From: Mycolicibacterium aichiense
GTDB lineage: Bacteria; Actinomycetota; Actinomycetes; Mycobacteriales; Mycobacteriaceae
Reading direction: 5' to 3'
Length of the DNA stretch: 64,000 nt
Assembly (NCBI RefSeq): GCF_010726245.1
Contig: NZ_AP022561.1
Span: forward strand, 5,861,483 to 5,925,482
The position numbers were made by a program, and so were the translations under genes. This document shows, one piece after another, positions 2,382 through 36,826 of the stretch. Numbering within the stretch: the stretch's first letter is position 1; the number at the start of each line of letters is the position of its first letter. The notes beneath the pieces were generated by a model, which saw only the letters and a list, made by a program, of their open reading frames with translations, did not search any database and was not told where the DNA came from.

Positions 2382-4759
2382 CCGCCGTCCGACGGCACTG
2401 TGCACACCCCGCCCGACTCGAGCAGCTCTCGGGCGGCATCCCACAGCACGGGGTGGTGATAGAGGAAGCCCTGCCCCTTGTCGGCACCGAGATCCAGCAG
2501 GGTGTCGCGCTCGGCGACAGTCTCGATGCCTTCCACCACAAGGTCCAGCGACAGTGCGCTTGCGAGGGCGACCACCGACTGCACCACGGCGCGTTGTTTG
2601 TCGTCGCCCTCGTCCAGTGCGGCGGCGAACGAGCGGTCGAGCTTGATCTGATCGACGGGCAGTGTGCGCAGCTGGGTCAGCGACGAATAGCCCGTGCCGA
2701 AATCGTCGAGGGACACCTTGACGCCGGCCTCGCGCAGCCGGGCCAGGGTCGGATGGGCGACCCGCAGGTCGACGAGTGCGTGTTCGGTGAGTTCGATCAT
2801 GAGTGTCTCGGGCGGCAACCCGGCCGCCGCCAGCATCTGCAGCACCTCTTCGGCGAAGCCGGCTTCCCGCACCTGGCGGGGTGACACGTTGACCGACATG
2901 GTCAGGTCCAGCGCCAGCCCGTCGGCGCGCCACTGCGCAAGGGTCTGGATGGTTTCGCGCAGCACCCAGCGGCCGATGTCGACGATCAGCCCGTTGTCCT
3001 CGGCCAGCGGGATGAACGCACCGGGATACAGGACGGGCAGTCCGGGCCGGTGCCACTGCAGCAACATCTCGAAGCCGGTGATCACTCCGGTGTCGAGCAC
3101 GACGATCGGTTGGGCGGAGACCCGAAGCTCGCCGCGCTCCACGGCGTGCCGCAGTGCGGCGTCCAGGTCCAGGCGCTGGGCGACCTCGGCTTCAAGGGTG
3201 GAGTCGAAGACATTGATGTGGTGGCCGTCGGTGAGCTTGGCCCGGTACATCGCCACGTCGGCTTCCCGCATCAGCTCGTGACCGGAGACGGTGGATTCGT
3301 CGGCGAAGGTGATGCCGATGGAGACGTCGACGAACGCTTCCTTGCCGTCGATGGTGTACGGCACGCTGAGTGCGGCGCGGATCCGCTCGGCCAGTGCGAG
3401 AGCCTGGGCGCGGTCGGGCAGCTCCGGGCAGAGCACCACGAATTCGTCGCCGCCCAGCCGTGCCACGGTGTCGCTTTCGCGCACGGTGGCCGACAACCGC
3501 CGCGCCGCTTCGATCAGCAGCTGGTCGCCGCCGGCATGTCCGATCGAGTCGTTGACCATCTTGAAGCGGTCCAGATCGCAGAACAGCAGCGCCAGCGGCG
3601 TTCCGCGGCGGCGGGACAACAGCAGGCTTTTCGACAGCCGCGTGAGCAGCAGGCTGCGGTTGGCCAAGCCGGTGAGGGCGTCGTGGCTGGCTTGATAGGA
3701 CAGCCGGCGCGCGGACGCATCACGTTCGAGCGACAGCACCGCCAGGTCCCGGCACCGCACCAAGGCGGTGTGGGCGAGTTCGTCGAGGGCTTCCGCGTCG
3801 CCGAACACCTGGAGCGTCCCTGACCCGTCGACGTTGTCGGTGACGACACCGGACCACGCCGGCGTGCCCGACACGTCGGCGCCCGGCGGGTAGATGACCG
3901 TTCGCCTGCCGATCGACAGTCGGACGGCCGGCGCCCCGGAGACGTCGGCGGCCAGCTGCACGATGTGGCGCAGGACTGACGACACCGGGCCTGCAGTGGC
4001 GATGCGTTCCAGGATCTGCGCTTGGCCGCGTTCCAGCGCCGAAACGCGGTCGAGTCGAAACTCGGTCTGGCGCAGAACTTCTCGCTCGTCGTCGAAAGCT
4101 TTGCGGGCGCTTCGGTATTGGCGTACCACGTTGGCTGCGACCCACCACAGCAGAATCGCCGCCAGCACCAGCGCGGCGATCAGCATGGCCAGCTGGACCA
4201 CGCGCCCGCGCAGCAGATTTCGCTCGGCGAGGCGATCCATCCGGTGCTGTTCGACCTGGTTGTCGGCGGCCAGCTCGTGCGCCCGCTCGAAGAGGGCCTC
4301 CGCGCGCGGCAGGATGGTGCCGGCCCAACGGTCGCGTTGCCCGACGGGGAGCAGACCGGGTGGTGCTTTGGCGACGACGGCGTCCAGTGCGGCCAGCGCC
4401 GCGCGATAGTCGGGTCCGGTGCTGTCGGCGGCGCTGACACCGTCGGCCGCGATCACCCGCAGACGCTGAGCCAGCATCGCCCTGGACAGCTGGACCTCGC
4501 GCCGGGGAACGACGCCGAGCAGATACTGCTGCGCGCGATCGATGTAGGTGAGCGAGTCGCGGACGGTGAAGAACGTGTTGGTGGCCGCGGCTTCGCTGCG
4601 GGCGCTGTGTTGGCTGTACGCGTTCTGATCGGCCGAGGACTGAAAGCCGATCGCGACCAGCGCGATGAGAAGCAGCACCAACACGGTCGCCACGATCTGC
4701 TGGCCGCGGTTGAGGGTCAGCCGAGGGCCGGGCGGGGTGAGCCAGCGGTCGGTGATCAC
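2291..4759 (-). CDS. Membrane-bound GGDEF-EAL cyclic-di-GMP enzyme
   Basis: An 822-residue protein predicted to make and/or degrade c-di-GMP. A membrane segment near residues 23-38 and another near 188-208 flank an extracytoplasmic sensor region. A GAF-like stretch (about 240-340) comes next. The GGDEF motif is at 436-440, with an RESD inhibitory site five residues before it. The EAL domain begins near 525. Its signature reads EML (564-566) instead of EAL, but the other metal and catalytic motifs are present (NVSPRQ, ELTE, DDFGTG, KLD, EGIET). The Ser/Pro-rich tail is encoded antisense to the neighbouring Asp-rich gene. It overlaps the upstream lipoprotein gene by ATGA, so the two are translationally coupled. 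Confidence 0.9.
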   Translation of the reverse strand: MITDRWLTPPGPRLTLNRGQQIVATVLVLLLIALVAIGFQSSADQNAYSQHSARSEAAATNTFFTVRDSLTYIDRAQQYLLGVVPRREVQLSRAMLAQRLRVIAADGVSAADSTGPDYRAALAALDAVVAKAPPGLLPVGQRDRWAGTILPRAEALFERAHELAADNQVEQHRMDRLAERNLLRGRVVQLAMLIAALVLAAILLWWVAANVVRQYRSARKAFDDEREVLRQTEFRLDRVSALERGQAQILERIATAGPVSSVLRHIVQLAADVSGAPAVRLSIGRRTVIYPPGADVSGTPAWSGVVTDNVDGSGTLQVFGDAEALDELAHTALVRCRDLAVLSLERDASARRLSYQASHDALTGLANRSLLLTRLSKSLLLSRRRGTPLALLFCDLDRFKMVNDSIGHAGGDQLLIEAARRLSATVRESDTVARLGGDEFVVLCPELPDRAQALALAERIRAALSVPYTIDGKEAFVDVSIGITFADESTVSGHELMREADVAMYRAKLTDGHHINVFDSTLEAEVAQRLDLDAALRHAVERGELRVSAQPIVVLDTGVITGFEMLLQWHRPGLPVLYPGAFIPLAEDNGLIVDIGRWVLRETIQTLAQWRADGLALDLTMSVNVSPRQVREAGFAEEVLQMLAAAGLPPETLMIELTEHALVDLRVAHPTLARLREAGVKVSLDDFGTGYSSLTQLRTLPVDQIKLDRSFAAALDEGDDKQRAVVQSVVALASALSLDLVVEGIETVAERDTLLDLGADKGQGFLYHHPVLWDAARELLESGGVCTVPSDGGYTGLASSESPSPSESTSVTSQRPSPSVST

Positions 4760-5331
4760 GGGCCGCCCGGGTGCTTCACCGTGATCGACGTGAGGCTCCA
4801 GTTCCAGGCTTCGAGCACCGACGACAGCGGGGAGCGGTCGGGGAACACGATCCGGATGGGCCCGCCCTGGTCGTAGGGAATGGGCGCGCCGTCACGTTCG
4901 GTGGCTATCAGGGCCTGCGAGTCGACCATCGGTTTGACGACGCTGACGTAGTGGTAGTGGTCGATCGCGTCGGTGTCGATCGTTGCGGTATCGGAGATCC
5001 CGGCTTTGGCGAGCACGATGGCCAGCGGCACACCGCTGTAGGTCTCGCGCTTGTTGACGAAGGGCTCGTCGATCGAGATCGTCGCGTGGCCCATCGCATT
5101 CAGCTGGTCGATGGTCAGCGACAGCGGGGTCGTCCCGCCGGTCACGGTGAGCACCGGTGCGTTCGGAGCGGGCGGATCGACGGTCCCGGCGGTGTAGGGG
5201 TTGCGGCCCTGCCCGGACTCCGAGTGCGCTGCGGCCGAGGAGGGGTGGTTGGGGGTGGGGCCGGTCGTACACCCGCCTACCGCAATGCCGACCGTCCCCG
5301 CCGCGATGGCGGCCAGGAGGCGGTTGCGCAT
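4756..5331 (-). CDS. Lipoprotein with a molybdopterin-oxidoreductase-like fold
   Basis: A 191-residue lipoprotein. A short signal peptide ends in a lipobox (VGGC), and a Pro/Ser linker follows. The mature part (LTVTGGTTPLSLTIDQL, then YSGVPLAIVLAKAG, IPYDQGGPIRIVFP) resembles the sulfite-oxidase/molybdopterin-dependent family domain. The Cys that would bind the cofactor in true enzymes is not seen, so it is more likely a ligand-binding relative. I chose ATG 5331 because the longer TTG form puts nine residues before the signal peptide. The ATGA overlap with the GGDEF-EAL gene suggests it may sense something for that enzyme (inference). Confidence 0.7.
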   Translation of the reverse strand: MRNRLLAAIAAGTVGIAVGGCTTGPTPNHPSSAAAHSESGQGRNPYTAGTVDPPAPNAPVLTVTGGTTPLSLTIDQLNAMGHATISIDEPFVNKRETYSGVPLAIVLAKAGISDTATIDTDAIDHYHYVSVVKPMVDSQALIATERDGAPIPYDQGGPIRIVFPDRSPLSSVLEAWNWSLTSITVKHPGGP

Positions 5332-5373
5332 GAAGGGCGATGATACTGCCCAAAGCAACGATCGGTCGGTACG

Positions 5374-6147
5374 TCAGCGTCCCTGGCCGGGCGGCCCGGC
5401 GAAGGCCTGCGCGATGCCGAGCCACCTTGTGGCATCGGCTCCTTCGGCGACGACGTCGAGCTCGCGGCTCGGCCTGCGCTGGGTGACCAGATAGCAGAAG
5501 TCGAGTGCCGAGCCGGTCACGCGTTGGGCCGCGTCCTCGGGTCCCCACGCCCAGCAGCTCCCGTCGGGAGCCGTCAGTTCGACGCGGAACGGCTCGGCCG
5601 GCGGGGTGAGCCCGTGCACGGTGAACGCGAAGTCGCGGGTCCGCACACCGAGGTGGGCGATCGACTTCAGCCGGGCGGACGCCGCGACCGCGACACCGAG
5701 GCCGTCGGCCACGTCCAGGCCGTGCGCCCAGGTCTCCATCAGCCGGGCGGTGGCCATCGACGGCGCGCTCATCGGCGGCCCGAACCAGACCAGCTTGCGG
5801 CCGTCGGCCACCCCGCGCAGCGCGGCGTGCAGCTGAGTGCGGGTGGCTCGCCACTGCGCCAGCAGTTGATCGGGAGGGGTGAGCGCGAGCTCTTCGGCGG
5901 CCTTGTCGACAAAGCCCGTCGGGTCGGCCTGCGCCGCCGCGAGCAATGCACCGAACGCGGGCTCGTCGGTGATCGACAGCAGCGACGCCCGATCGGTCCA
6001 CAGCAGATGCGCGATCTGATGGGCGATGGTCCAGCCGGGTGCCGGCGTGGACAGCGCCCACCCGGACGGATCCAGCGGCGCGACGAGGGCGTCGAGGGCG
6101 TCGCTTTCGTCGCGCAGGTCGTCGATGATCGGGTCCGCGGCTGCCAT
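5374..6147 (-). CDS. TIGR03084-type DinB-fold metal-binding protein (Rv0036c-like)
   Basis: A 257-residue cytoplasmic protein of the DinB/mycothiol-dependent maleylpyruvate isomerase superfamily. The N-terminal helical bundle shows the metal-ligand pattern: His43 and His47 in [11 protein letters not shown], and Glu plus His in [12 protein letters not shown]-terminal domain of SCP-like type follows ([23 protein letters not shown]). Members are thought to be mycothiol-linked S-transferases or isomerases, but the substrate of this subfamily is unknown. It corresponds in order and length to Rv0036c (257 residues). Confidence 0.82.
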
Positions 6148-6172
6148 GGATCGAACCTAGCCCCAGCCTCAC

Positions 6173-7444
6173 TCAGGCGCGGCGGCCGACCGCGCTGTGC
6201 ACGGCAAGGCCGACCAGATAGACCACCGTGCCGGTCAACGCCAAGACCGCCGAGTGACCGTCGGCCGGGACCACCGCGGCGGCAACCGTGATGGCGGCGA
6301 TGAACGACACCCAGAACAACGAATCCTGTACGGCGAACACATGTCCGCGCAGCGCGTCGTCGACGTCGATCTGCATGGCGGTGTCGGCGCACAGCTTGAC
6401 GATCTGGCCGGCCAGCCCGAGCAGGAACCCGCACACGATCATGACCACCAACTGCAGGGTGGCCCCGGCCAGCTGAATGACCGCCGCACACACCAACGCC
6501 CCGTTGGCGGTCGCATACCGGCCCCACCGCTTGATCGACATCGGGGTCAGCACGTTGGCCAGGAAGGCGCCGCCGCCGGTGGCCGCGACGAAGATGACGG
6601 CGGTGCCCAAACCAGCGACGGCCTGGGTGTCGCTGTGCCGCACGATGACCAGCACCAGCAAGGTGTTGATGCCGAACACCATCCGGTGGCTGGCGAGGCC
6701 GGACAGCGTCGCCGCGACGGTTGGTGTGCTCAGCACTGTGCGTGCGCCGTAGATCCACCCGGTGGTGACGGCGTAGAACACCGAACCGTGCACGGCGCGG
6801 GCGGTGTCGTCAGGCCCGAGGACGTGCCGCGGAAAGCGCAGGGACAGCACGAACGCGACTGCGATCGGTACCGCCACCATCAGCATGATGGTGGCCGCGC
6901 CGGCGTCACCGGAGCCGAACAGCCAGCGCGGCAAGAGCATGAAGTTCGCCCCGAGGAACGTGGCGGTGGCCCCGGTGGCGGTGGCGACAGAGTTCATCAC
7001 CACGACCGACTGGCGCGGCACCACGTGCGGCAGCGCAGCCGACAGTCCTGAGGTGACGAAGCGGCTGAACCCGTTGACGATCAGCGCGCCGCACAGCACG
7101 GTCAGGTCGCTGGCGCCGATGGCGAGCAGCACCGCCACGCCGACGACCAACAGCAGCCGGGCCAGGTTCGCCCCGACCAGGACCGCCCGGCGATCCCAGC
7201 GGTCCAGTAGGGCTCCGGCGAACGGTCCGACGATCGAGTACGGCAGGAACAGCACCGCGAACGCCCCTGCCACCGCCCACGGATCGGCCGCCCGTTCCGG
7301 GTTGAACAACAGCCCGCCGGCGAGCCCGGCCTGAAACAGCCCGTCACCGAACTGGCTGGCGGTCCGCAGCTCGAGCAACCGCCAGAACTCGGGCAGGCTG
7401 CGCACGGATCGCCAGAGCGAACCGGGTGCGCGGGCGTCGACCAT
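6173..7444 (-). CDS. MFS transporter (Rv0037c-like)
   Basis: A 423-residue major facilitator superfamily protein with about 10-12 hydrophobic segments. The MFS loop signature appears as [13 protein letters not shown] between the second and third helices. The family usually exports drugs or metabolites; the substrate is unknown here. I prefer the ATG at 7444 to the GTG at 7468 because TACTGT lies 7 bases before the ATG, as in other leaderless genes of this window. It follows the same order as Rv0036c-Rv0037c. The stop is 25 bases from the Rv0036c-like start. Confidence 0.88.
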
Positions 7445-32921: not shown

Positions 32922-35156
32922 ATGGCGGTCGTCGATGATCTCGGTCAGCCCGGGATGGACAGTCCTCCTCCTTCTGAGGACTTCGGTCGCCAGCCTCCCC
33001 AGGATTTAGCAGCCGAACAATCGGTGTTGGGCGGCATGCTGCTGTCCAAGGACGCGATCGCCGACGTGCTGGAGCGGCTGCGCCCGGGTGACTTCTACCG
33101 GCCGGCCCATCAGAACGTCTACGACTCGATCCTGGACCTCTATGGCCGCGGCGAGCCCGCGGACGCCGTCACCGTCGCCGCCGAGCTGGACCGCCGCGGG
33201 CTACTGCGCCGCATCGGTGGCGCTCCCTATCTCCACACGCTGATCTCGACCGTGCCGACGGCCGCGAACGCGGGTTACTACGCGGGCATCGTGGCGGAGA
33301 AGGCATTGTTGCGGCGGCTCGTGGAGGCCGGCACCCGGGTGGTGCAGTACGGCTACGCCGGCGCGGAAGGCGCCGACGTCAACGAGATCGTGGACCGCGC
33401 GCAGGCCGAGATTTACGACGTCACCGAGCGGCGAACAGCGGAGGATTTCCTTCCGCTGGAGGATCTGCTGCAGCCGACGATGGACGAGATCGACGCCATC
33501 GCCTCCAACGGTGGTCTCTCCAAGGGTGTCCCGACGGGCTTCGAGGAGCTCGACGCGTTGACCAACGGCCTGCATCCCGGTCAGATGATCGTGGTCGCGG
33601 CCAGGCCCGGTATGGGCAAGGCTCTGAGTCTGGACACGCCGCTGCCGACGCCGACGGGCTGGACCACGATGGGCGAGGTCAAGGTCGGGGACTACCTGAT
33701 CGACGCCGACGGACGCCCCACACGCGTGGTCGCGGCAACCGACATCATGGTGGGCCGGCCGTGCTACGAGGTCGAATTCTCCGACGGCACAGTCCTTATT
33801 GCGGACGCTGAGCACCAGTGGCTGACGGAGACCCGCGCTTCGCGGAAATCTGCGCTTGTGAGGACGACGCGCGCCATCGCGGAGACATTGCACTGGAACC
33901 ACGCGGTGGCCAATTCGAAGCCTCTCCAGGCGGCGGTCCGTGTGCTCCCCGTACCGGCGTATTCGCTGGGGGCGTGGCTGGGCCAGGGATTCAGCCCGGC
34001 GGAACCCGAGATCGTCATGCGAATCGAGGGCGAGGGCGGCGACATCGGTGCCTTCGACGCCACGCACATTCCCGCGGAGTACCTCCGCGCCGCCGAGTCT
34101 CAGCGGCATGCACTGCTTGGCGGCCTGTTGGATGCCAGCGGAGCGGTGAGTAGCGACGGGTCAGTTGACTTCTCGACGACCAATCATCGTCTGGCTGATG
34201 ACGTGTTCGAATTGATCGTCAGCCTCGGTTACGACTGCCGTCGCGATGAAAAATCAACAGCGTTCATCCTGAACTTCTCCACCGATGACGAGGTGTTCGG
34301 GTTGCCCCGGAAAGCCCTGTTGCACAAAGAACGGCGCGCGAGCGGAAAGGCGCGGGTGTCGTCGCGCTTCATCACCGACGTCCGGCCCATCGCGAGCGTT
34401 CCGGTCCGCTGCGTCGAGGTCGACAACGGTGACCACATGTACCTCGCGGGGCGGGCGATGATCCCGACCCACAACTCGACCCTGGGACTCGATTTTCTGC
34501 GGTCCTGCTCGATCAAGCACCGGTTTCCGAGCATCGTGTTCTCACTGGAAATGAGCAAGTCCGAGATCGTGATGCGACTGCTCTCGGCCGAAGCGAAGAT
34601 CAAGCTTGCCGACATGCGCTCGGGAAAGATGACCGACGACGACTGGACACGCCTGGCGCGCCGGATGAGCGAAATCAGCGAAGCGCCTTTGTATATCGAC
34701 GATTCGCCGAACCTGACGATGATGGAGATCCGTGCTAAAGCGCGCCGGCTGCATCAGAAGGCCGGATTGCGGCTGATCGTGCTCGACTACCTGCAGCTGA
34801 TGACGTCGGGCAAGAAAGTCGAGTCGCGCCAGCAGGAAGTCTCCGAATTCTCAAGGCAAATCAAGCTTTTGGCGAAGGAACTGGAAGTTCCCGTGGTCGC
34901 GATGAGCCAGCTGAACCGCGGTCCCGAGCAGCGCACCGACAAGAAGCCAATGCTGGCCGACCTTCGTGAAAGCGGATCGATCGAGCAAGATGCGGATATG
35001 GTGATATTGCTGCACCGGCCCGATGCCTTCGAAACCGACGACCCGCGTGGTGGTGAGGCGGACCTCATCGTCGCGAAACACCGTGCAGGACCGACGCGTA
35101 CGGTGACGGTTGCGCACCAGCTGCATTTGTCGCGATTTACGAACATGGCGCGCTAG
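32922..35156 (+). CDS. dnaB: Replicative DNA helicase DnaB with one intein
   Basis: The precursor has 744 residues; excising the intein leaves a 459-residue hexameric 5'-3' helicase. The N-terminal primase-interacting domain is at about 25-170. The RecA-like domain begins with FEELDALTNGLHPGQ. Its Walker A loop is split: ARPGMGK ends at residue 233 and STLGLDF resumes at 519. Walker B (RLIVLDYLQLM) and the C-terminal NMAR end are intact. The second intein site used in M. tuberculosis DnaB (before the conserved SIEQD after LRESG) is empty. Helicase activity should depend on splicing because the P-loop is interrupted. Confidence 0.96.
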   Translation: MAVVDDLGQPGMDSPPPSEDFGRQPPQDLAAEQSVLGGMLLSKDAIADVLERLRPGDFYRPAHQNVYDSILDLYGRGEPADAVTVAAELDRRGLLRRIGGAPYLHTLISTVPTAANAGYYAGIVAEKALLRRLVEAGTRVVQYGYAGAEGADVNEIVDRAQAEIYDVTERRTAEDFLPLEDLLQPTMDEIDAIASNGGLSKGVPTGFEELDALTNGLHPGQMIVVAARPGMGKALSLDTPLPTPTGWTTMGEVKVGDYLIDADGRPTRVVAATDIMVGRPCYEVEFSDGTVLIADAEHQWLTETRASRKSALVRTTRAIAETLHWNHAVANSKPLQAAVRVLPVPAYSLGAWLGQGFSPAEPEIVMRIEGEGGDIGAFDATHIPAEYLRAAESQRHALLGGLLDASGAVSSDGSVDFSTTNHRLADDVFELIVSLGYDCRRDEKSTAFILNFSTDDEVFGLPRKALLHKERRASGKARVSSRFITDVRPIASVPVRCVEVDNGDHMYLAGRAMIPTHNSTLGLDFLRSCSIKHRFPSIVFSLEMSKSEIVMRLLSAEAKIKLADMRSGKMTDDDWTRLARRMSEISEAPLYIDDSPNLTMMEIRAKARRLHQKAGLRLIVLDYLQLMTSGKKVESRQQEVSEFSRQIKLLAKELEVPVVAMSQLNRGPEQRTDKKPMLADLRESGSIEQDADMVILLHRPDAFETDDPRGGEADLIVAKHRAGPTRTVTVAHQLHLSRFTNMAR
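33621..34475 (+). mobile_element. Class-3-type intein in the DnaB Walker A loop
   Basis: A 285-residue in-frame intein between Lys233 and Ser519 of the precursor. It begins with Ala, not Cys or Ser, and ends THN followed by Ser. The class 3 triad can be placed: Trp67 in AEHQWLT, Cys264 in VRCVEVDNGDH and Thr283 in IPTHN. His65 is the block B histidine. The middle contains a degraded LAGLIDADG endonuclease: the first motif reads LGAWLGQG, with Gln122 where Asp is needed, and the second (LLGGLLDASGAV) keeps Asp171. So splicing should be active and homing dead. Related M. smegmatis DnaB inteins are reported to respond to zinc or oxidation. Confidence 0.88.
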
Positions 35157-35162
35157 ATCCAC

Positions 35163-36446
35163 ATGGCACTACCCGCGTCGGCGCGAATCCTCAGGGCGGA
35201 CAACGGCGCGGAGACCACGCCGGGCGAGCTGATGCAGGTTTGTGAGCGGGTTTTCGTGTGGACGCTGGATATGCGTAGGCGTATGGTGGGGCGGCCAGTC
35301 GCCCGTGTGATCCATAGCGGTCGCCTGGAGGTATTTCGTCTGCGCCTGGCATCCGGTCGCGAGTTGGAGGCGACGGGCAATCAACCGTTCATGACGCTGG
35401 ATGGTTCAATTCCATTGGCAGCCATGACGACTGGTCAGCGCCTTGCAGTCCCACGCCGAGTTCCCGAGCCGCTTGATGCGTCAGGCATGGTGGACCCCGA
35501 ACTGATTCTCCTCGCCCACATGATCGGTGACGGTTCCTGTGTGAAGCACCAGCCCATCCGTTACGCGAGCATCGATGAAGAGAGTCTGGCTGCGGTCAGC
35601 GCCGCCGCGAGGCACTTCGGCGTCACGGCGATTCGTGATGACTACCCCGCCGCACGAGTGATCACTCTGCGTCTGCCAGCGCCATTCCGGTTGACACACG
35701 GTAAGCGCAACCCGATCGCGGCATGGCTGGACGGCCTCGGGCTGTTCGGCTTAAGGAGCTATGAGAAGTTCGTTCCGCCACGGGTTTTCGCACTTCCCTA
35801 CGAAAAGGTGGGCTTGTTCTTAAGGCACCTATGGGCGACTGACGGGCATGTGAGCTGGGATGCGCGATCCGAGATCGGCAGGGTCTACTATTCATCGACC
35901 AGCCGACGGCTCATTGACGATGTCGCACAGCTACTGCTGCGATTCGGCGTTCTATCGCGGATCAAACGAGTGCAGAAGGAAGGTTATCGGGACGGTTGGC
36001 ACCTGCATATCTACGGCGCCGAGAACCAGTTGCGCTTTCTCCGGCACATCGGCGTTCATGGCGCAAAGGACACCGCAGCTGAGGCGCTGATTTCTAAACT
36101 CGAAGTAGTGCAGCGCAACACGAACCTAGACACGATCCCGATATCAGTGTGGACCAACGTCCGCGCAGCGCTGGTCGAGACGGCAATGACTCAGAGGAAA
36201 TTCGCGGTAGCGATGAACACAAGTTACTGCGGGTCCGCCATGTGGAAGCGCTCGCCGAGCCGCGGCAGGGTCCACCGCGCGGCCGTAGTCCTCGAAGACC
36301 GCTACCTACACGATCTCGCCACCAATGACGTGTTCTGGGACGAGATCGTGGAGATCACCAGCATCGGACAACAGGATGTGTACGACGTGGCGATCGACGG
36401 CGGCGACAACGTCATAGCTCAGGGAATCGTCGCGCACTCCGGCTGA
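35163..36446 (+). CDS. Free-standing DnaB-intein-like LAGLIDADG endonuclease
   Basis: A 427-codon ORF starting 7 bases after the dnaB stop. From ARILRADNGAE to GIVAH it follows the layout of the M. tuberculosis-type DnaB intein as I remember it: Hint N-half, then LAGLIDADG pair, then Hint C-half. Endonuclease motifs are complete (LLAHMIGDGS with Asp123; FLRHLWATDGHV with Asp227). Splicing residues are lost: the N-terminal Cys is replaced by MALPAS, the block B His by Gln74 (TGNQPF), and the terminal His-Asn by His-Ser-Gly-stop. It has no Shine-Dalgarno; translation probably reinitiates after dnaB. Likely a homing endonuclease derived from an intein; whether it cuts DNA is unknown. Confidence 0.85.
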   Translation: MALPASARILRADNGAETTPGELMQVCERVFVWTLDMRRRMVGRPVARVIHSGRLEVFRLRLASGRELEATGNQPFMTLDGSIPLAAMTTGQRLAVPRRVPEPLDASGMVDPELILLAHMIGDGSCVKHQPIRYASIDEESLAAVSAAARHFGVTAIRDDYPAARVITLRLPAPFRLTHGKRNPIAAWLDGLGLFGLRSYEKFVPPRVFALPYEKVGLFLRHLWATDGHVSWDARSEIGRVYYSSTSRRLIDDVAQLLLRFGVLSRIKRVQKEGYRDGWHLHIYGAENQLRFLRHIGVHGAKDTAAEALISKLEVVQRNTNLDTIPISVWTNVRAALVETAMTQRKFAVAMNTSYCGSAMWKRSPSRGRVHRAAVVLEDRYLHDLATNDVFWDEIVEITSIGQQDVYDVAIDGGDNVIAQGIVAHSG

Positions 36447-36826
36447 AATAGCAGGGTCCTTTCGCCGGTGTGGTGTAGGGGTTACGCCTGGACGCACCCG
36501 ATCGGGGGTGGACGACCTGGCACGCTCCGTGGCGTGCGGCGCCGTCCGAACGATGGAGCTAGCAGGGCGAGGATCAGGTAGCCGTAGCGCTCGGAGATTC
36601 CGTGTTCGCGGGCCATGCGGTTGATGGTCAGATCGCGTTCGCGCACATGCACTTTCGTGTAGCGCGCAGGACTCGGATGTCGAGGGTGGCGCCGAGCGGA
36701 TTGCGTGCGCGGGTGTCGTCACCGGCGGTGAAGGCGAACAGAGCATCGATCCGCGGATATCCGGCGGTCCGGACTTCTAGATTCAATCCGAGGGAATCGG
36801 ATGTGCCACTGGACGATTCAGCCCGA
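36447..36826. other. Gene-poor stretch after the endonuclease ORF
   Basis: No convincing complete gene lies in these 380 bases. The minus strand holds a recombinase-like fragment (36482-36664). Upstream of it, in another frame, an open stretch of about 50 codons (36665-36800) reads like a protein but matches no family I recognise. The region looks like the eroded end of a mobile element. Confidence 0.5.
36482..36664 (-). pseudogene. Possible serine-recombinase C-terminal remnant
   Basis: A 60-codon open stretch on the minus strand without its own start. It contains TINRMAREHGISERYGYLIL followed by ALLAPSF, which resembles the helix-turn-helix end of resolvase-type recombinases (S-I-x-x-L-A ... 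I-x-x-x-Y ... LLAP). The part encoding the catalytic serine domain is absent. Weak but suggestive evidence for a past mobile element beside the endonuclease gene. Confidence 0.3.

Follow-up and report, generated by a model that had tools for sequence, protein, structure and literature searches.

A free-standing gene derived from a DnaB intein downstream of dnaB in Mycolicibacterium aichiense

Organisation of the dnaB locus

The window analysed here (64,000 nucleotides of the M. aichiense contig NZ_AP022561.1) carries dnaB on the forward strand at positions 32922..35156, an open frame which encodes the replicative helicase (DnaB_C, 7.2e-96; TIGR00665, 1e-154) and which is both the neighbour and the presumed target of the gene described below. 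Embedded within dnaB is a P-loop intein of 285 aa (33621..34475, forward strand; assigned by its position and named after the excerpted text of PMC6195587), which is distinct from the free gene and has weak LAGLIDADG likeness (E 0.0085); across relatives the P-loop intein is absent or takes mini or longer forms. The H4 insertion site with its flanks (34953..34994, forward strand) is empty, as dnaB runs uninterrupted across the junction between 34976 and 34977, and the serine codons at positions -2 and 0 of this site are AGC (34971-34973) and TCG (34977-34979), respectively, both read on the forward strand.

The dnaB stop codon (35154-35156) is followed by a 6 nt spacer (35157..35162), which has the same length in all five loci of the group named clade A below, and then by an ORF of 427 aa on the same strand (35163..36446), with its ATG starting at the seventh base past the stop codon. 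The ORF lies in a frame of its own (35157-36446) after the dnaB stop, and is not in frame inside dnaB. We assign it as a free-standing, intein-derived LAGLIDADG endonuclease gene on the basis of the NCBIfam model PRK07773 (intein-bearing DnaB), which covers residues 3-426 (E 1.4e-157), matches to the Pfam families LAGLIDADG_3 (PF14528, 1.8e-27) and Intein_splicing (1.1e-11), residue comparisons, and an AF2 model of its product with a complete intein-plus-endonuclease fold. The forward-strand gene consists of an N-terminal piece of the former splicing (Hint) domain (residues 1-98, 35163..35456, with Gln74 at 35382-35384), an endonuclease part (residues 105-335, 35475..36167) and a C-terminal piece of that same splicing domain (residues 384-427, 36312..36443) ending in His-Ser-Gly. 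The endonuclease part contains the cutting residues Asp123 (35529-35531), Lys202 (35766-35768) and Asp227 (35841-35843), so that two motifs with D123 and D227, the PF14528 match and the predicted fold all fit a LAGLIDADG endonuclease; a zf-C2H2 match of 19 residues within this part stays below threshold. When compared to relatives lacking the ORF, the insertion runs from the dnaB stop to approximately position 36713, with likeness resuming at 36714 (locus L138, the earliest), and leaves a remainder of about 267 nt downstream of the ORF (36447..36713) in which we detected no dnaB fragment.

The sequence-only reading had proposed that this ORF reads as a DnaB intein from end to end while lying outside dnaB, which is borne out by the PRK07773 coverage and the empty H4 site; by homology, the ORF is confirmed as an H4-site (M. 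tuberculosis-type) DnaB intein over its whole length, now free-standing. A chance ORF is excluded by the full-length homology and the constraint described below, and an in-frame intein hidden by a sequencing error or misassembly is untenable, since the window genome is a single contig with a single match to the ORF and four other genomes share the same arrangement and frame length, with 71-78% protein identity to the ORF.

Distribution, origins and constraint of free-standing copies

When 396 genomes of the genus were searched with the window protein, 17 free copies of full or almost full length and 98 embedded copies were found, where free copies have their own frame of 429-525 aa (a few matches being slightly short of full length) and embedded copies lie in frames of >600 aa; these 17 copies answer the suggested survey of dnaB downstream regions and include the window ORF and those of the four further genomes with the same arrangement. 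All but one of the free frames (16/17) lack internal stops, the exception being G054, and one further copy in the 396 genomes is interrupted by a contig end (G048). The loci L006-L110 are all embedded in dnaB save L031 and L066, which are free and were already counted as G322 and G389. Broken free copies are present in G280 and G066. Genome G366 (L125, L126) combines an embedded intein with a broken copy beside it and an extra piece approximately 16 kb away, and G179 (L127) has an embedded intein with pieces located elsewhere on that contig, at a distance of approximately 28 kb.

We expanded the search to 301 genomes of the family, which added three free copies from one further genus (L241, L242 and L243) and a truncated free copy in another genus (L236). 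All 20 free copies lie downstream of dnaB at a distance of no more than 5 kb: the near edge is at most 0.6 kb from the dnaB 3' end in 17/20 and at 2.4, 4.2 and 4.8 kb in the others, and two (L119 and L243) are on the opposite strand. At L243 (G654, 4818-7235) dnaB itself contains a diverged embedded H4 intein, and the free copy follows 61 nt downstream. Among the matches listed from public protein sets (120 of 1331), some relatives bear the name 'LAGLIDADG family homing endonuclease' and others 'hypothetical protein'. With regard to a phage origin, a scan with six short peptide patterns gave four matches in viral contigs, with no relative among them.

A quickly computed phylogeny of the endonuclease part, based on the 17 free copies and 45 of the 95 distinct embedded copies chosen for diversity, placed the free copies in clade A (the window, L128, L129, L130 and L031), clade B (L111-L114) and clade C (eight rows), each with an SH-aLRT of 99 and nested among mycobacterial embedded inteins. 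A single origin of the three clades was not rejected (p 0.158), and constraining clades A and B together scored no worse than keeping them apart. With the three copies from the other genus included, four changes are required on the tree, each of them forced by starred branches, and a single clade of all 20 free copies was rejected (lnL difference 76.4, AU p 0.0107). On this phylogenetic comparison, the free-standing form is shown to have arisen more than once.

All 95 distinct embedded copies have Cys1, the block-B His74, the penultimate His and the terminal Asn (each 100% conserved). The window ORF has no Cys at position 1, a Gln74 in place of the block-B His, and ends in AHSG-stop, but retains the penultimate His (H425) together with Asp123, Lys202 and Asp227. 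Among the free copies of the genus, Cys1 and the terminal Asn are lost in 17/17 and the block-B His in 16/17 (L121 has it), and the penultimate His is kept in four of the 17 (the window, L128, L129 and L130). In the three copies from the other genus the Cys1 column is a gap, position 74 is occupied by Gln and the terminal Asn is missing. D123, K202 and D227 are present in all of these, i.e. in 17/17 copies of the genus and 20/20 overall. Clade A can still be read as an intein over its whole length, and the splicing ends are eroded in clades B and C. When measured against a functional class 1 intein of the DnaB H4 site, the window ORF lies outside the host frame and has only H425 left, and judging by these residues its protein is no longer able to splice. 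The earlier claim that every splicing residue was lost holds for Cys1, His74 and the terminal Asn and not for H425, and the claimed retention of both LAGLIDADG aspartates extends from the window to all 20 free copies.

We next compared dN/dS between the three parts (median pairwise NG86, pairs with undefined dS dropped). In clade A the values are 0.26 for Hint-N (9/10 pairs), 0.09 for the endonuclease (10) and 0.15 for Hint-C (10); in clade B they are 0.37, 0.12 and 0.23 (three pairs each, L114 left out), and in clade C 0.27 (19/28 pairs), 0.06 (21) and 0.27 (19). For the embedded mycobacterial copies the corresponding values are 0.11 (300/300 pairs), 0.15 (298) and 0.10 (200); all of these values are rough because synonymous distances are close to saturation, but the order nevertheless flips. 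Constraint is reversed, with the endonuclease being the most conserved part in free copies and the splicing domain in embedded copies, and this comparison shows the free-copy endonuclease to be under purifying selection, as far as such ratios can be read. The proposal that the gene is kept as an endonuclease rather than being a recent relic is supported by the kept cutting residues, the reversed dN/dS (with the endonuclease lowest in clades A, B and C), the repeated presence downstream of dnaB and, outside clade A, the dnaB fragments and the conversion tract described below. Relatives do not display random decay either, as 16/17 frames are open and the aspartates are kept throughout.

Recoding, dnaB fragments and a conversion tract

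Codon usage was surveyed over the last 226 positions of 97 dnaB genes that are either empty or accompanied by a free copy. Seventeen of the 19 serine codons are fixed (at least 95%) as TCN or AGY, and the two exceptions are the pair flanking the H4 junction, with an AGY share of 23% at codon -2 and 30% at codon 0. Similarly, TTA (21% at codon -8) and CTA (29% at codon -5) peak near the junction versus a mean of 2.8% at other leucine positions. The arginine codon at -41, far from the site, also mixes classes (AGR 52%), where CGN-AGR is a single base change. Since switching between TCN and AGY needs two base changes, the serine codons suggest that selection acts on this site at the DNA level.

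Within the genus, AGY at either serine is found in 13/18 carriers of a free copy versus 20/79 empty genes (p 5e-4, ancestry ignored), or in 13/19 carriers when the unmarked carrier G262 is added (p 8e-4, ancestry ignored). In other genera this is 4/4 carriers versus 1/40 empty genes (p 3.7e-5, ancestry ignored), with 2/2 carriers left when one truncated copy and one with an embedded intein are removed (p 0.0035, ancestry ignored). Recoding marks in the left half of the site are present in 12/19 free carriers, 26/79 empty and 1/25 embedded loci, and AGY at codon -2 in 0/25 embedded versus 7/18 free carriers; at codon 0, 12/25 embedded carriers have AGY. Four of the 19 carriers in the genus are without any recoding mark (L114, L121, L124 and L245). 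The 26 gene-less genomes with a recoded left half (e.g. L133, L139 and L140) look as if they were past carriers or recipients of a resistant allele.

The regions beyond the free genes were searched with a profile of dnaB 3' ends (threshold E<1e-3), using 20 close empty loci as controls, of which the best reached 0.3. A dnaB 3' piece lies directly 3' of the free gene at L124 (2.5e-40), L125 (1e-39), L114 (2e-5), L115 (2.8e-5), L121 (3.9e-4) and L113 (5.6e-4), and at L119 (2e-5), where gene and piece are both inverted. These seven loci belong to clades B and C or are relics, and L116 has a weak match (0.16) at the same place. The two with the strongest matches begin 32-33 nt past the H4 junction, continue in frame to a stop, and share 90-92% identity with the dnaB gene that they accompany. 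Of the 18 other loci tested (full-length or broken copies beside or near dnaB, clade A included), 12 have no clear fragment; none was found beyond the window ORF when searched in three ways, or at the five clade A loci. The 267-nt remainder after the window ORF coincides in length with a dnaB 3' end plus its flank, but we gave this no weight. Across the 79 loci that are empty and the 25 with an embedded intein, the sole strong match is L172 (G335), where a dnaB 3' piece lies approximately 2.1 kb downstream (8.5e-25) without a free gene. This region (approximately 4630-5132 in dnaB orientation) holds a partial second dnaB in pieces, from just past the P-loop site to the 3' end, and L172 was not counted as a fragment locus since the piece seems part of a larger dnaB duplicate.

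A possible conversion tract was found between L115 and L116. Over the 400 nt that lead up to the H4 junction these loci have 34 differences, of which the nearest to the junction is at -16, followed by two from the junction to the dnaB stop, 16 from the stop to +657, and none from +658 to +1259 within the free gene, after which likeness drops again toward the gene end. Their synonymous distance is 0.39 in the upstream versus 0.05 in the downstream part of dnaB (p 2.5e-5). This pair had already been picked out by its free-gene likeness before a blind tract scan, in which it ranks first but is not significant after correction for the 7381 pairs. No conversion tract was seen in clade A, and distance correlation along dnaB gave no clear break. 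A rise in synonymous divergence toward the dnaB 3' end was found in 21/23 independent mycobacterial pairs (threshold 0.3) and also in 10/10 Nocardia pairs (looser threshold of 0.45) from loci that hold an embedded intein, and being common to Nocardia it was dropped as support for repeated homing.

A homing model and its alternatives

We consider it probable that the ORF is a homing endonuclease gene derived from an H4-site DnaB intein, which would cut empty dnaB and enter the locus along with the 3' end of dnaB. The protein would act on dnaB genes that lack the intein, cutting them at the H4 site or close to it, and repair of the break from the carrier would copy the whole stretch that begins at the cut, runs over the 3' end of dnaB and reaches into the free gene. 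The carrier's own site would be spared through synonymous changes in place of an insertion. The old dnaB 3' end would be pushed downstream and left as a fragment, as in clades B and C; clade A lacks the fragment, so copying there would need resection beyond the approximately 180-nt dnaB 3' end into the downstream flank, a step which we liken to intronless homing in phage T4. Movement between species would assume DNA transfer, and such a gene need not splice as it is no longer inside a protein.

The most serious competitor, which we nevertheless regard as unlikely, is a domesticated gene that no longer spreads and is kept for a host function, such as destroying incoming dnaB alleles of foreign origin as a guardian, or regulation through DNA binding in the manner of WhiA. 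This would agree with the strong constraint on the endonuclease part, the fixed 6 nt distance from dnaB at 5/5 clade A loci, and the WhiA structures (8dy9 and 3hyi) among the fold matches of the ORF product, WhiA being described in the excerpted text of PMC7282813 as a former LAGLIDADG protein turned regulator. It agrees poorly with the patchy presence (17/396 genomes of the genus), the broken copies in G280 and G066, the catalytic aspartates retained in 20/20 copies, and the dnaB fragments and conversion tract seen outside clade A. The sequence-only reading had left the choice between a selfish gene and an allele guardian; selfish homing fits better, and a guardian role is the less probable of the two.

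There is little probability that the marks on dnaB (recoding and 3' divergence) stem from homing of the embedded intein, with the free gene a by-product without homing of its own. Embedded copies are about six times commoner (98 versus 17 of 396), 12/25 of their carriers have AGY at codon 0, and the 3' divergence is shared by Nocardia, but left-half recoding (1/25 embedded versus 12/19 free) and AGY at codon -2 (0/25 versus 7/18) follow the free gene, the L115/L116 tract takes in the free gene, and the dnaB fragments lie beyond it. Least credible of all is a decaying relic of an intein moved beside dnaB by chance, for while splicing ends are eroding in clades B and C, broken copies exist and one frame in 17 (G054) has an internal stop, 16/17 frames in the genus are open, endonuclease dN/dS is 0.06-0.12 in three clades, and D123, K202 and D227 persist in 20/20 copies.

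Homing by the freed intein, our preferred reading, has its nearest overall model in what would be the yeast counterpart: the excerpted text of PMC7282813 describes the WHO elements at FBA1 and HO as intein-derived free-standing endonuclease genes. As with WHO and HO, an intein-derived LAGLIDADG gene stands free downstream of a conserved, uninterrupted host gene (here the presumed target), and as with WHO there are host 3' fragments beyond the gene (here at seven loci, none in the window's clade), some copies are inverted, and resistance would come through allelic differences and not insertion (all as far as that excerpt goes). The conversion of an intein into an endonuclease at its own host gene was earlier put forward as a possible new class; the step itself is seen, but it has a precedent in yeast HO/WHO, according to the same excerpt. 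Unlike WHO and HO, the lineage is that of a DnaB intein and not VMA1, there is no notable zinc-finger domain, and the hosts are bacteria without meiosis; cutting is demonstrated for WHO in the excerpt and presumed here. Descent from the yeast family (VDE plus zinc finger) is not indicated, as the free copies fall among actinobacterial DnaB inteins in trees without a yeast protein. The embedded H4 DnaB intein (DnaBi2, Mtu type) is of the same family over its full length, has the same endonuclease and is, by its place in the tree, what the free copies arose from, but lies inside dnaB and splices, whereas the free copies lack Cys1, the terminal Asn and all but one block-B His. For clade A the nearest model may be intronless homing in phage T4, where, in the excerpted text of PMC2988022, the genes for SegF, SegG and MobE lie between conserved genes with the target in a neighbouring gene and are inherited by resection and co-conversion, as we propose here; these belong to the GIY-YIG and HNH families, are not intein-derived and move in phage crosses. 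Free-standing endonucleases of intein origin next to dnaB were the subject of none of the matches listed in the open-licence literature, as assessed from titles and the opening lines of abstracts.

The transition from a splicing-dependent to a free-standing selfish element is known chiefly from one yeast lineage, and its repeated occurrence within a single family of bacteria, where the parents are still inside dnaB and the free clades range from intein-like throughout (A) to eroded at the splicing ends (B and C), makes it comparable and testable. The balance of the evidence tips slightly toward bacteria having their own, repeatedly invented WHO counterpart, in which freed DnaB inteins overwrite the dnaB 3' end and hosts escape by synonymous recoding. 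If true, this would add a structural class of homing element in bacteria, the pressure that an endonuclease puts on an essential gene would be legible from codon switches where it cuts, and silent sites in dnaB would record an arms race.
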